Origin: Bradyrhizobium sp. LTSP885
GTDB taxonomy: Bacteria > Pseudomonadota > Alphaproteobacteria > Rhizobiales > Xanthobacteraceae
NCBI RefSeq assembly: GCF_000938305.1
Contig: NZ_JYMT01000043.1
Coordinates: 62,001-126,000, forward strand
Direction: 5' to 3'
Length of the DNA stretch: 64,000 nucleotides
The notes beneath the pieces were generated by a model. That model made no database searches and was not told the DNA's origin. It saw nothing but the letters and a program-made list of their open reading frames with translations. Position numbers and translations under genes: made by a program. Below, one piece after another: positions 23,785-26,934 of this stretch. The stretch's first letter is position 1, and every line of letters starts with the position of its first letter.

Positions 23785-24936
23785 ATGAAGAAGGCCACTC
23801 TCGCCGCAGCAGTGCTCGCGGCGATTTTTGCGCTGCCGGGCTCGCCGTCGCAGGCGCAGACCAGTGACATCACCATCGGTATCTCGATCTCGACCACGGG
23901 ACCGGCCGCAGCCCTCGGCATCCCCGAGCGCAACGCGCTGGATTTCGTGCCGAAGGAAATCGCCGGCGTGCCGCTGAAGCTGATCGTGCTGGATGATGGC
24001 GGCGATCCGACGGCTGCGACCACCAACGCGCGGCGCTTCGTCACCGAGTCCAAGGCCGATATCATCATGGGCTCCTGCACCACGCCGCCGTCGATCGCGG
24101 TCTCGACGGTCGCCAACGAGGCCGGCATCCCGCATTTCGGTCTGGCGCCGTTCCCGATCAACGAGGCGCGCGCAAAATGGTCGGTCGATTTGCCGCAGTC
24201 GATCCCGATCATGGCCAAGGTGCTGTACGAGCACATGAAGGCGCACAACATCAAGACCGTCGGCTATATCGGCTACTCCGATTCGTACGGCGATCTCTGG
24301 GTCAACGATTTCAAGACCACCGCCGTGCCGATGGGCCTGACCATGACCGACGAGGAGCGTTTTGCGCGTCCCGACACCTCGGTCGCGGGCCAGGTGCTGA
24401 AGCTCGTCGCCGCCAATCCCGACGCGATCCTGATCGGCGCCTCCGGCACTGCCGCGGCGCTGCCGCAGACCGCGCTGCGCGAGCGCGGCTACAAGGGTCT
24501 GATCTACCAGACCCACGGCGCCGCCAGCATGGACTTCATCCGCATCGCGGGTGCGGCCGCCGAGGGCGTCATCATGTCGGCGGGCCCGGTGATGTCGCCG
24601 GAGACGCAAGCTGACAGCGCGCTGACCAAGAAGCCGGGCCTCGCGCTCAACACGGCCTATGAAGCCAAATACGGCGCCAACAGCCGCAGTCAGTTCGCAG
24701 GCCATTCCTACGACGCCTTCGAGGTGCTGAAGCGGATCATCCCGGTGGCGCTGAAAACCGCCAAGCCCGGCACGCCGGAATTCCGCGAGGCGATCCGCCA
24801 GGCGTTCCTCAGCGAGAAGGAGATCGTCGCGACCCAAGGCGTCTACAACTGGACCGAAAAGGACCGCTACGGCCTCGACGACCGCTCGCGGATCCTGCTG
24901 ACGGTCAAGGACGGGAAGTACGTTCCGGCGATGTGA
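23785..24936 (+). CDS. couP: ABC transporter periplasmic binding protein (CouP-like), 383 aa
   Basis: A type I periplasmic binding protein of the Liv/aromatic-acid family, with a signal peptide (MKKATLAAAVLAAIFALPGS, cleavage after SQAQ). The fold is marked by ISISTTGPAAALGIPERNAL and YIGYSDSYGDLWVNDF. Its own permease and ATPase genes lie on the opposite strand beyond the repeat array (26203-29744). CouP of Rhodopseudomonas palustris binds p-coumarate and relatives and is encoded in a comparable neighbourhood. A strong hairpin terminator follows. Confidence 0.85.
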   Translation: MKKATLAAAVLAAIFALPGSPSQAQTSDITIGISISTTGPAAALGIPERNALDFVPKEIAGVPLKLIVLDDGGDPTAATTNARRFVTESKADIIMGSCTTPPSIAVSTVANEAGIPHFGLAPFPINEARAKWSVDLPQSIPIMAKVLYEHMKAHNIKTVGYIGYSDSYGDLWVNDFKTTAVPMGLTMTDEERFARPDTSVAGQVLKLVAANPDAILIGASGTAAALPQTALRERGYKGLIYQTHGAASMDFIRIAGAAAEGVIMSAGPVMSPETQADSALTKKPGLALNTAYEAKYGANSRSQFAGHSYDAFEVLKRIIPVALKTAKPGTPEFREAIRQAFLSEKEIVATQGVYNWTEKDRYGLDDRSRILLTVKDGKYVPAM

Positions 24937-24999: not shown

Positions 25000-25235
25000 A
25001 CCCTCCCCTGGAGGGGGAGGATCGCCTCGCATCGCGGAGCGATGAGAGGCGGGGTGGGGTGACAGTCTATCGTCGTCGGAGGTGCTTCAATGGAACCGCT
25101 TCGGCGTCACGCGAACCATAGAGCTCGACGTAGATCCGCTCCGGCACCGCATTTGCGGCTTCACCCCACCCCGATCGCATCCGACGATGCTGCGCATCGC
25201 CGTTTGCGCTCGACCCTCCCCCTCCAGGGGAGGGT
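25000..25235. mobile_element. Inverted-repeat element, copy 1 (236 bp, internally deleted)
   Basis: Bounded by 25-bp inverted repeats (25000-25024 and 25211-25235), each itself a CCCTCCCC/GGGGAGGG hairpin; inner segments GGGGTGGGGTGA and TCACCCCACCCC also pair. Relative to copy 2 it lacks most of the DUF559 gene but keeps the last ~25 codons (25067-about 25145) in the same place, so it is an internal-deletion derivative. Confidence 0.75.
25067..25145 (-). pseudogene. C-terminal remnant of a DUF559 gene in copy 1
   Basis: The frame ends ERIYVELYGSRDAEAVPLKH, identical to the end of the intact DUF559 protein at 25351-25746. Everything upstream of the Pro-Glu-Arg-Ile junction is missing, and the deletion joins directly to the element's right-hand segment. 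It cannot encode a working nuclease. Confidence 0.75.
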
Positions 25236-25283
25236 GAAGTGGAGTGCAATCATCGCATGAATGCAAGGCTATCGGTTCTTCTC

Positions 25284-25831
25284 ACCCTCCCCTGAAGGGG
25301 GAGGGTCGCCTCGCATCGCGGAGCGATGAGAGGCGGGGTGGGGTGACAGCCTATCGTCGTCGGAGGTGCTTCAATGGAACGGCTTCGGCGTCACGCGAAC
25401 CATAGAGCTCGACGTAGATCCGCTCCAGCACCGCATTGAGGTCGGCCGTGATCTCCGAATTCCAGAATCGGATGACGCGATATCCTTCCCTTTCGAGCCA
25501 CGCCTGCCGTTCACGATCGCGGTGGGCTGTTTCGTCCTCGTTGTGGTGCCCGCCGTCCAACTCGATGATCAGTCGTTTCGCAGGACAGAAGAAGTCGACG
25601 ACGTAAGGACCGATAGGAGCCTGACGCCGAAAATGTGTACCGTCGACCGGTAGCTCTCGCAACGCTCGCCACAGAATCCGCTCGTGCGGTGTGGTGTTAG
25701 CGCGAAGCTTCCTGGCAGTCGCTCTGCGGATCGACGTTGACACCATTTGTGCGGCTTCACCCCACCCCGATCGCATCCGACGATGCTGCGCATCGCCGTT
25801 TGCGCTCGACCCTCCCCCTCCAGGGGAGGGT
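25284..25831. mobile_element. Inverted-repeat element, copy 2 (548 bp) carrying a DUF559 gene
   Basis: Left end 25284-25308 and right end 25807-25831 are inverted copies of the same 25-mer, with one difference. Inside, the left and right structured segments of the other copies flank an intact DUF559 nuclease gene on the minus strand. This is the fullest copy in the array. A 48-bp spacer, also conserved, separates it from copies 1 and 3. Confidence 0.75.
25351..25746 (-). CDS. DUF559 (Vsr-like PD-(D/E)XK) endonuclease-domain protein, 131 aa
   Basis: A small DUF559-family protein. The family core is present: TTPHERILWRALRELPVDG with its Glu, THFRRQAPIGPYVVDFFCP with the catalytic Asp, and LIIELDGGHH (E-x-D), then RVIRFWNSEI. 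These positions correspond to the Vsr-like nuclease fold; cleavage is inferred, not shown. Start ATG 25746 is chosen because the open frame upstream is only element DNA. The gene lies entirely between the inverted ends of a repeated element whose other copies have lost it, so it may be the element's own mobility or maintenance function, or a passenger. Confidence 0.85.
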   Translation of the reverse strand: MVSTSIRRATARKLRANTTPHERILWRALRELPVDGTHFRRQAPIGPYVVDFFCPAKRLIIELDGGHHNEDETAHRDRERQAWLEREGYRVIRFWNSEITADLNAVLERIYVELYGSRDAEAVPLKHLRRR

Positions 25832-25879
25832 GAAGTGGAGCGCAATCATCGCGTGAATGCAAGATGATCGATTCTTCTT

Positions 25880-26061
25880 ACCCTCCCCTGGAGGGGGAGG
25901 GTCGGTTCACATCGCGTCAGCGACGTGAACCGGGGTGGGGTGACAGTCTATCGTCGTCGGGGAGCTTCAATGGAACGGCTTCGGCTTCACCCCACCCCGA
26001 TCGCATCCGACGATGCTGCGCATCGCCGTTTGCGCTCGACCCTCCCCTTCCAGGGGAGGGT
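25880..26061. mobile_element. Inverted-repeat element, copy 3 (182 bp, gene-less)
   Basis: Left end 25880-25904, right end 26037-26061. No DUF559 coding sequence is left: GGAACGGCTTCGGC joins directly to TTCACCCCACCCC. The left inner hairpin differs from copies 1 and 2 (GTTCACATCGCG...GACGTGAAC instead of GCCTCGCATCGCGG) but keeps the pairing. Confidence 0.75.
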
Positions 26062-26109
26062 GAAGTGGAGCGCAATCATCGCGTAAATGCAAGATGATCG
26101 ATTCTTCTT

Positions 26110-26180
26110 ACCCTCCCCTGGAGGGGGAGGGTCGGTTCACATCGCGTCAGCGACGTGAACCGGGGTGGGGTGAAGGTCTA
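26110..26180. repeat. Solo left half of the element, copy 4
   Basis: The left 25-mer (26110-26134), the GTTCAC/GTGAAC hairpin and GGGGTGGGGTGA are present, but no right end follows. The array therefore ends in a truncated copy just before the converging ABC ATPase gene. Confidence 0.7.
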
Positions 26181-26202: not shown

Positions 26203-26934
26203 TCAAATCGCGCTCTCGCCCTCGTACTGAAAGCCGAGATAGCTCGCGGCGACACCCTTGTTGGCTGCGATCTCCTTCGCCGTGCCTGACAGCACGAACT
26301 CGCCGAGCTCCATCACATAGGCGCGGTCGGCGATTTGCAGTGCTGCCTGTGCGTTCTGCTCGACCAACAATACCGAGACGCCGGCGGCGCGGAGCTCGCT
26401 GACGATGCGGAAAATGTCGGCGACGATGATCGGGGCAAGGCCAAGACTCGGCTCGTCCAGCATCAGCAGCTTCGGCGCGCCCATCAGCGCACGCCCCATC
26501 GCCAGCATCTGCTGCTCGCCGCCGGACAGCGTGCCGGCGAGCTGCTTGCGCCGCTCCTTCAGGCGCGGAAACAGCGCGTAGACCTTCTCGATCGAGATCG
26601 CCGCGGTGGCCTTCGCAATCCGGAAGGCGCCGAGCTCCAGATTGTCCTCGACATTCATCGAGCCGAACAATTCGCGATGCTCCGGCACCAGGCTGAGGCC
26701 ACTGGCGACGCGGTCCTCGATATCGAGCGGCGTCAGATCAGTGCCGGCGAAGGTCGCGCGGCCCTTCAGCGGCAGGATGCCCATCACGGCGTTGAGCAGC
26801 GTGCTCTTGCCGGCGCCGTTGGCGCCGATGATGGTGACGATCTCGTTCTCGGCGACGTCGAGCGAGACGCCGCGCACGGCCTCGACCTTGCCGTAGGCAA
26901 TGTGGACGTCGCTGACCGTCAACAGCGCGCTCAT
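26203..26934 (-). CDS. LivF-type ABC ATPase, 243 aa
   Basis: A branched-chain/aromatic acid type ABC ATPase: Walker A GANGAGKSTL, LSGGEQQMLAMGRAL signature, Walker B LLMLDEPSLGL, and the LivF-like tail AYVMELGEFVLSGTAKEI. Start ATG 26934 overlaps the stop of the fused permease-ATPase gene by 3 bases. It is the last gene of the minus-strand uptake operon, paired with the receptor at 23785. Homologous to the CouPSTU-type ATPase by context. Confidence 0.92.
   Translation of the reverse strand: MSALLTVSDVHIAYGKVEAVRGVSLDVAENEIVTIIGANGAGKSTLLNAVMGILPLKGRATFAGTDLTPLDIEDRVASGLSLVPEHRELFGSMNVEDNLELGAFRIAKATAAISIEKVYALFPRLKERRKQLAGTLSGGEQQMLAMGRALMGAPKLLMLDEPSLGLAPIIVADIFRIVSELRAAGVSVLLVEQNAQAALQIADRAYVMELGEFVLSGTAKEIAANKGVAASYLGFQYEGESAI

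Follow-up and report, generated by a model that had tools for sequence, protein, structure and literature searches.

A small DUF559 nuclease as the probable partner of a family of C-rich hairpin repeats

The window analysed here is the whole 64-kb stretch of contig C38 from the 7.85-Mb draft genome (own genome, G000) of Bradyrhizobium sp. LTSP885. It holds an array of three inverted-repeat units and one half unit, with three 48-nt spacers and a single intact gene, which encodes a DUF559 protein related to the Vsr-like PD-(D/E)XK nucleases. We propose that the DUF559 nuclease is the partner of a family of C-rich hairpin repeats and acts on its own repeats, a reading to which we give a probability of about 0.72. 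The conserved nuclease is enclosed by paired, structured repeats, which are also found without it, and this is best read as a partnership like that between repetitive extragenic palindromic (REP) sequences and REP-associated tyrosine transposases (RAYTs), built in this case on a Vsr-like nuclease, with enzyme and repeats that would both be unrelated to RAYTs and REPs.

From the outside inwards, the usual order of a unit end is a C-rich hairpin, often a second hairpin, a G-rich box and the gene, the other end having the same parts inverted; between the inverted ends lies either DUF559 or a short spacer. The outer hairpin is of the type CCCTCYCCC..GGGRGAGGG (for example CCCTCTCCC-loop-GGGAGAGGG) and the box of the type GGGTGAGGGG (for example GGGGTGAGGG), and repeat types differ in stem and loop. 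Inverted repeats around DUF559 were scored by aligning the 300 nt upstream of the domain to the reverse complement of the 300 nt downstream, with a threshold of at least 15. In Pseudomonadota 113 of 137 scored DUF559 loci were flanked at this threshold, versus 4 of 299 control open reading frames (ORFs) from 20 stretches of 20 kb and none of the 131 control ORFs shorter than 700 nt; at a score of at least 18 the figures were 104/137 and 1/299, and in 6 of the 137 loci the best of 20 shuffles also scored 15 or more. The flanks were C-rich hairpins by a simple rule in 108 of the 113 flanked loci, the other five resembling variants, and in one of the four flanked controls. Flanked loci made up 29/29 of the best-scoring ones of the genus (of 30 taken, one had a flank too short to score), 18/20 of its lower-ranked ones, 17/28 of the automatically chosen phylum loci and 49/60 of the phylum loci fetched by score order, which are the top scores down to about 110 bits, weaker places being left out. 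The 88 phylum loci represent 34 genera and 20 families, with a flanked copy in 27 genera and 16 families. Among the best 80 of at least 537 confirmed DUF559 loci in a set of named genomes, other phyla included, 62 were flanked, 56 of these being C-rich by the rule. Flanked records bear names such as Pseudomonas, Gallionella, Methylococcus, Legionella, Nitrospirae, Desulfobacterales, Gastranaerophilales and Dehalococcoidia, many of the records being metagenome bins whose names can be wrong. DUF559 thus sits inside such ends far from the window, as a preliminary description of this DNA had led one to expect, and these surveys, with the 80 hairpins of the own genome reported below, rule out a purely local duplication.

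By a rough rule, the hairpin lies outside and the box inside in 59 upstream arms of the 113 flanked loci, and the box lies outside in 7; in the named-genome set the same rule gives 33 and 10 arms, respectively (the latter for example in Pseudomonas, L245-L248), the remaining arms being unclear or hairpin only. A G-quadruplex motif is present in 53 of 114 arms of flanked DUF559 loci, where shuffling expects 2.2; this frequency may be a by-product of G runs kept for another reason.

In one genus, three kinds of repeat accompany three kinds of enzyme. C-rich hairpins stood on both sides of 39 of 51 DUF559 loci of the genus (GTAG palindromes in 1, CGTC in 0), and on at least one side in 42 (CGTC 14, GTAG 3). 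CGTC palindromes stood on both sides of 19 of 31 loci of GIY-YIG genes of the YYVYILAS kind (C-rich and GTAG 0), and on at least one side in 21 (GTAG 5, C-rich 0). For Y1 transposases (26 loci) the repeat was GTAG, on both sides in 14 and on at least one side in 16, the others being absent in both counts. None of the repeats bordered both sides of the 19 other GIY-YIG loci (17 MWYVYIIRSI-like, L349 of another kind and L350 with its motif not read; GTAG on one side in 2) or of 130 random positions (one side: C-rich 4, CGTC 5, GTAG 4). Both ends of a DUF559 locus were of the same repeat type in 38 of 39 loci of the genus, 12 of the 51 having an untyped end. On a protein tree of the 51 genus DUF559 domains, with the repeat type given in 47 rows and many forks unresolved, the 6 types require 6 changes, and all of 200 shuffles required at least 20; the expectation that DUF559 phylogeny follows the element ends was therefore borne out. 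By flank homology the 51 loci fall at 9 sites, so the within-genus counts are not independent and much of the agreement between type and tree is shared descent. More telling for the coupling of type and clade is a single site occupied by T1 units in 19 species and by T4 units in 6 others, the proteins falling into the T1 and T4 clades, respectively.

Repeats and gene also occur in the same genomes. Among 249 Pseudomonadota genomes, with at least 3 pattern repeats and a DUF559 match of E at most 1e-20 (strong) as thresholds, 41 had both, 9 the repeats only, 19 DUF559 only and 180 neither (Fisher odds ratio 43, p 1.4e-23, with the kinship of the genomes left in); a strong DUF559 was thus present in 41 of the 50 genomes with repeats vs 19 of the 199 others. 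Solo pairs are many per genome and nuclease-bearing units few. In the own genome, which has one small DUF559 gene, 80 hairpins fit the general C-rich pattern and none the reversed pattern, and chance is therefore not the explanation. When 49 hairpins, from 50 listed of these 80, were analysed for pairing, 30 fell into 15 pairs, all outward-facing, with starts 104-173 nt apart. In G407 both repeats around DUF559 are identical to 8 of the 9 other listed copies in that genome, the ninth having 1 difference. Four solo pairs elsewhere in the own genome are bounded by the 25-mer that bounds the units of the window (at most 3 differences in one arm), and inside them lies another short inverted repeat and, judged by eye, no DUF559 remnant; solo units are therefore not simply deletion products, a view rejected for these four pairs.

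The array lies between a gene for a periplasmic binding protein and one for an ATP-binding cassette (ABC) ATPase, with the following features.

23785-24936, plus strand: flanking gene, periplasmic binding protein
25000-25235, no strand: copy 1, inverted-repeat unit, internally deleted, about 28 last DUF559 codons left
25236-25283: spacer 1, 48 nt
25284-25308, plus strand: copy 2, left outer hairpin, 1 difference from the 25-mer
25307-25335, plus strand: copy 2, left inner hairpin, covarying across 11 termini
25335-25346, plus strand: copy 2, G-rich box GGGGTGGGGTGA facing the gene, same syntax across the family
25351-25746, minus strand: DUF559 (PF04480) Vsr-like PD-(D/E)XK nuclease gene, 131 aa and stop, ATG at 25746
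25755-25769, minus strand: copy 2, right-hand G-rich box, CTTCACCCCACCCCG on the plus strand
25770-25806, minus strand: copy 2, right inner region with a short hairpin CGATGC..GCATCG, read by eye
25807-25831, minus strand: copy 2, right outer hairpin, exact reverse complement of the 25-mer
25832-25879: spacer 2, 48 nt
25880-26061, no strand: copy 3, inverted-repeat unit, internally deleted, about 13 last codons left
26062-26109: spacer 3, 48 nt
26110-26175, plus strand: copy 4, solo left half; relative G003 (L060) likewise has just a half unit here
ending at 26203, minus strand: flanking gene, ABC ATPase

The 25-mer opens the units at 25000, 25284, 25880 and 26110, and its reverse complement closes them from 25211, 25807 and 26037. 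The preliminary description had counted these four starts and three ends correctly and had taken them as identical; three of the seven in fact differ from it once, namely the left ends of the first two copies and the right end of the third, and the match is exact on the left of copies 3 and 4 and on the right of copies 1 and 2. Its intact DUF559 gene in copy 2 (PF04480, E = 1.4e-37), its solo left half as copy 4 and its 48-nt spacers all stand. For copy 1 it had rightly reported C-terminal codons, the count now being about 28 in place of about 25, and the statement that copy 3 keeps none of the gene is withdrawn, since about 13 last codons are present. Copies 1 and 3, holding these final codons, are therefore deletion derivatives. 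The earlier likening of the array to an autonomous element and its miniature inverted-repeat transposable elements (MITEs) holds for these derivatives beside the DUF559 unit and for the empty sites described below; it fails for the four solo pairs that carry no gene remnant.

The inner left hairpin, said to differ between copies with its pairing kept, does so, and relatives join in: in 11 termini of the window type 95.5% of the cells pair. Changes on both sides were found in 4 of 10 pairs, which 27 of 500 shuffles reach, and 12 cells are changed on both sides, which none of the 500 shuffles reaches. These compensatory changes support covariation of the inner hairpin and selection on its structure.

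The preferred reading of the DUF559 ORF on the minus strand has 131 aa, starting with the ATG at 25746 and stopping with the TAG at 25351, and therefore the gene fills the interior of copy 2 between both G-rich boxes; a longer reading of 164 aa has its start further out, at a TTG within the right-hand repeat. The protein matches PF04480 with 128.4 bits (curated cut-off 20.6), and D51, E62 and D64, which we take from the fold to be the catalytic residues, are invariant across 43 DUF559 sequences. The gene encodes the nuclease domain alone, without a strand-transfer domain. The predicted structure (mean predicted local distance difference test score, pLDDT, 88; predicted template modelling score, pTM, 0.81) is closest to the solved DUF559 protein 3hrl (Z 14.4), followed by the homing endonuclease I-Bth0305I (3r3p; Z 12.6, Foldseek E 2e-5), although the fold alone shows no function. 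A plain Vsr is ruled out by the Vsr mismatch endonuclease model of NCBIfam (TIGR00632), which gives 18 bits vs a cut-off of 97.85; in fold the protein compares with Vsr at Z 10.7. The defence models of PADLOC gave short matches only, the best of 24 bits, with 6 models at E 0.01, one of them named homing endonuclease. The ratio of non-synonymous to synonymous substitution rates (dN/dS) was 0.04-0.12 in 13 pairs of DUF559 genes (15 tried, 2 without an estimate, dS above 1 in 5), and for the window gene and that of G010 it was 0.08 (dN 0.076, dS 0.98). Judged from these ratios, the gene is under purifying selection and the protein is therefore kept functional. Elsewhere in the own genome, on contig C35 (L010:1468-2670), a TrmJ-type RNA methyltransferase ends in a C-terminal DUF559-like domain whose nuclease motif has ELVN in place of its ExD part; it has no inverted repeats at its flanks, and similar weak matches exist in many genomes of the genus.

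The orthologous ATPase gene was found at 30 loci, the own included, with both neighbours within reach in 8. At the window site G010 (L059) has one DUF559 unit and a solo half unit, G003 (L060) has a half unit only, adjoining the ATPase gene, G015 (L086) a half unit only, adjoining the binding-protein gene, and G004 (L058) a remnant with repeats of another type. L063, L066 and L068 have no C-rich hairpin by pattern at this site and carry other sequence (83-88% protein identity), and six loci (L071, L072, L073, L077, L078 and L079) have inverted hairpin pairs, of the same or another type, 3' of the same ATPase gene. No closely related clean empty allele of the window's own site was found among the 8 loci with both neighbours. 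From these states of the relatives, the array probably arose locally from a state like that of G010 and probably grew by local tandem recombination via its repeats and spacers; the one unit and half unit of G010 at the same place support the tandem duplication suggested earlier. Within its C-rich units G004 (L058, L383) also has long hairpins, GCAACCGGGGT..ACCCCGGTTGC and CAAGTCGGGC..GCCCGACTTG, resembling a further inserted repeat family.

Filled and empty versions of one site, which the preliminary description had proposed to look for, do exist in sister genomes. At one site of G004 a DUF559 unit is present in G004, G009, G011 and G007 (with an extra repeat in G004 and G011), a single terminus in G010, whose flanks are 93-94% identical to those of G004, and no repeat in G005, G013 and G014. 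The comparison of the empty loci (L385, L387, L389) with the filled ones (L383, L386, L388, L390) leaves gain and loss undistinguished, and one-directional recombination between the repeats could convert the state of G004 into that of G010. A further site, between dnaN and recF, was compared in 28 complete loci from the search, with 4 added as known DUF559 carriers. Among the 28, the DUF559 domain is intact in 7 and broken or partial in 3; another 7 have a GIY-YIG ORF with CGTC-type repeats on both sides (L215, L220, L223, L227, L237, L243 and L244, called by eye, in agreement with the PF01541 places in G004, G026 and G018); 4 have a spacer of 74-75 nt containing a single CGTC-like palindrome, and the last 7 have spacers of other kinds, 102-219 nt long.

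The GIY-YIG subfamily YYVYILAS..YIGVTN (L338-L354, L363-L382 and the dnaN-recF loci) lies mostly between CGTC-type REPs. By the plain inverted-repeat score 10 of 11 YYVYILAS loci were flanked among 30 automatically chosen GIY-YIG loci, and so were 18 of 20 fetched lower-ranked places, in 7 of which (6 flanked) the protein was not recovered by motif and membership of the subfamily is assumed. From this position it is a candidate dedicated enzyme of the CGTC repeats. At two places (L363, L375) the adjoining repeat is CCGGAATCTCGAGATTCCGG or near-identical to it, which is the Br-REP1 consensus as printed in the accessible part of PMC5082802. GTAG repeats such as GTAGGGTGGGCAAAGCGAAGCGTGCCCACCA border many of the Y1 (RAYT) loci of the genus (L407-L436).

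Escherichia coli ycjD, annotated as DUF559, resembles the present units in that multicopy repeats adjoin the gene, and differs from them in that C-rich G-box repeats lie downstream only (L359:1487-2060), the upstream palindrome being of another kind. A 71-nt stretch with GGGGAGAGGGTTAGGGTGAGGGG beside ycjD is present in 5357 of 5426 E. coli genomes, at a median of 14 places per genome; it may belong to the BoxC family. Three E. coli genomes without ycjD offer no clean empty site, because other genes adjoin sapF there.

Under the proposed partnership, the DUF559 nuclease would bind its own terminal hairpin and box and would cut or nick the DNA there, perhaps when the hairpin is extruded or single-stranded. 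Recombinational repair of the break would then copy the unit to other sites in the fashion of a homing endonuclease, the copied units being nuclease-bearing or, when served in trans, solo; the window array would have followed by later tandem recombination through repeats and spacers. Given the partnership, we put this homing-like route at about even odds, and prefer it because a homing endonuclease and Vsr are the characterised proteins nearest in fold, a strand-transfer domain is absent and no target duplication was seen. The accessible part of an evolution study describes as recombination hotspots both the segments that carry DUF559 with a transposase and the homing endonucleases of GIY-YIG type, pairs of which bound 44% of 61 long-range structural variants (PMC12308824).

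Several observations weigh against the partnership. No paired flanks were found in 24 of the 137 DUF559 loci and 18 of the 80 named-genome loci, a CGTC palindrome lies on one side in 14 of the 51 genus loci and GTAG in 3, and these 51 loci reduce to the 9 sites noted above. The co-occurrence test leaves kinship in; 9 of the 50 repeat genomes have no strong DUF559 (3 have a weak match, and one has 128 repeats), and in 14 of the 60 genomes with a strong DUF559 the search pattern, which does not cover all repeat types, has no match. The order of box and hairpin varies, the box being outside in 7/66 clearly read arms of the first set and 10/43 of the named set, and the single site compared by eye, that of G004, showed no target-site duplication. 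In several genomes the hairpins of solo pairs face inwards, which the model does not explain; such pairs occur in G407 (C51, C111, C119), G217 (C1) and G226 (C2), and their orientation is opposite to that in the own genome and in most DUF559 units. In the hotspot segments of PMC12308824, as far as the accessible text describes them, a transposase shares the segment with DUF559 and may be the cause. The DUF559 protein VsrA of Caulobacter is proposed, in the accessible part of its report, as a mismatch-repair nuclease, linked with DNA damage upon loss of the cognate methylation (PMC12907096); this role and a repeat partnership may be compatible if VsrA is a domesticated copy.

As a variant of the partnership, DUF559 might itself be transposase-like and excise and insert the unit directly, not via host repair. 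Terminal inverted repeats, MITE-like deletion derivatives, filled and empty sites and the similarity to the transposition endonuclease TnsA (Z 7.4, inside the range of common fold matches) speak for this variant, which we nevertheless consider unlikely: the nuclease domain has no strand-transferase partner, inspection by eye of the one site compared showed no target duplication, and genus copies sit at few sites. The 51 genus loci at 9 sites do not look like the work of an autonomous transposon that jumps often. The idea that the nuclease is the mobility function of an inverted-repeat element, put forward in the preliminary description, therefore keeps its ground as to the wide presence of DUF559 inside such ends, and loses it as to frequent jumping; the system is closer to a domesticated RAYT with its population of REP doublets forming hairpins (REPINs).

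DUF559 could also be a passenger which settles between copies of C-rich repeats that spread otherwise, in safe intergenic or recombination-prone places. The repeats are frequent, other nuclease genes occupy the dnaN-recF site in sister genomes and repeat-rich genomes without a strong DUF559 exist, all of which would fit; however, the both-side specificity of C-rich repeats for DUF559, CGTC for one GIY-YIG subfamily and GTAG for Y1 (save 1/51 DUF559 loci with GTAG), the single type at both ends in 38/39, the agreement of type with protein clade and the similar syntax across phyla make a passenger distinctly unlikely. Very unlikely is a Vsr-like repair or defence nuclease whose hairpins are merely terminators or mRNA structures: the Vsr fold, VsrA of Caulobacter (PMC12907096, as far as its accessible text goes) and the weak PADLOC matches to parts of defence proteins point that way, but the hairpins stand on both sides, are of the same type at both ends and form solo pairs too, and the Vsr model is far under its cut-off. 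Movement of the C-rich repeats by RAYT (Y1) transposases, as for GTAG REPs, could be imagined from the REP-like organisation in inverted pairs and from Y1 matches in 33 of 60 genus genomes, but is rejected as extremely unlikely, since the own genome has no Y1 (RAYT-type) match at E 0.001 beside its 80 C-rich hairpins and a C-rich hairpin lies within 400 nt of none of the 26 scored Y1 loci (4 more dropped for a contig end or insufficient length), 14 of which have GTAG palindromes on both sides.

A broader conjecture, which may or may not hold with roughly equal chance, is that several unrelated nuclease classes each have their own REP-like repeat (HUH with GTAG, GIY-YIG with CGTC and DUF559 with the C-rich G-box repeats, the last in multiple phyla and including E. 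coli ycjD), the non-RAYT repeats being kept up through homing-like copying that an endonuclease drives, possibly on DNA in single-stranded, cruciform or G-quadruplex form. If the pairings of DUF559 and of the GIY-YIG subfamily are true, there is a concrete substrate for two protein families whose function is unknown or a guess, and the origin and spread of the repeats could be tested by single genes in laboratory strains, E. coli ycjD included.

REP-like repeats are widespread in bacteria, and to our knowledge a dedicated enzyme has been described only for their GTAG kind. A repeat family with a dedicated enzyme is thus a known kind of system; the DUF559 enzyme and the C-rich repeat class appear to be new. 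No link of DUF559 or GIY-YIG to REP-like repeats was found in the open-access papers searched, PMC12306157 included, and the repeat strings, searched as literal text, led to six papers with titles not about these repeats. PMC9465073 mentions both GIY-YIG and REP sequences. According to the accessible part of the 2013 survey of Di Nocera et al. (PMC3733652), CGTC REPs are mostly alphaproteobacterial, lie in head-to-head pairs and apparently have no dedicated transposase, and untagged repeat kinds await study; the present repeats are untagged, in contrast to CGTC REPs, and the CGTC-type repeats seen here appear to accompany a GIY-YIG subfamily. With the REP/REPIN-RAYT systems the present one shares short palindromic repeats, often in inverted pairs and many per genome, a rare dedicated gene between the same repeats, type specificity and long-term upkeep at few sites; unlike them, it has a PD-(D/E)XK Vsr-like nuclease in place of a Y1/HUH transposase (TnpA-REP), and its repeats have no GTAG tag and carry a C-rich stem and a G-rich box. 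With the Vsr-like homing endonuclease I-Bth0305I and free-standing homing genes it shares the fold and an intergenic gene with empty alleles in sister genomes, but no intron or intein was seen and the DUF559 gene is flanked by multicopy repeats. Like MITEs and their autonomous insertion sequence, it has terminal inverted repeats and internally deleted copies; it differs from these in having no transposase domain, no target duplication seen and four solo pairs that, by eye, hold no gene remnant.

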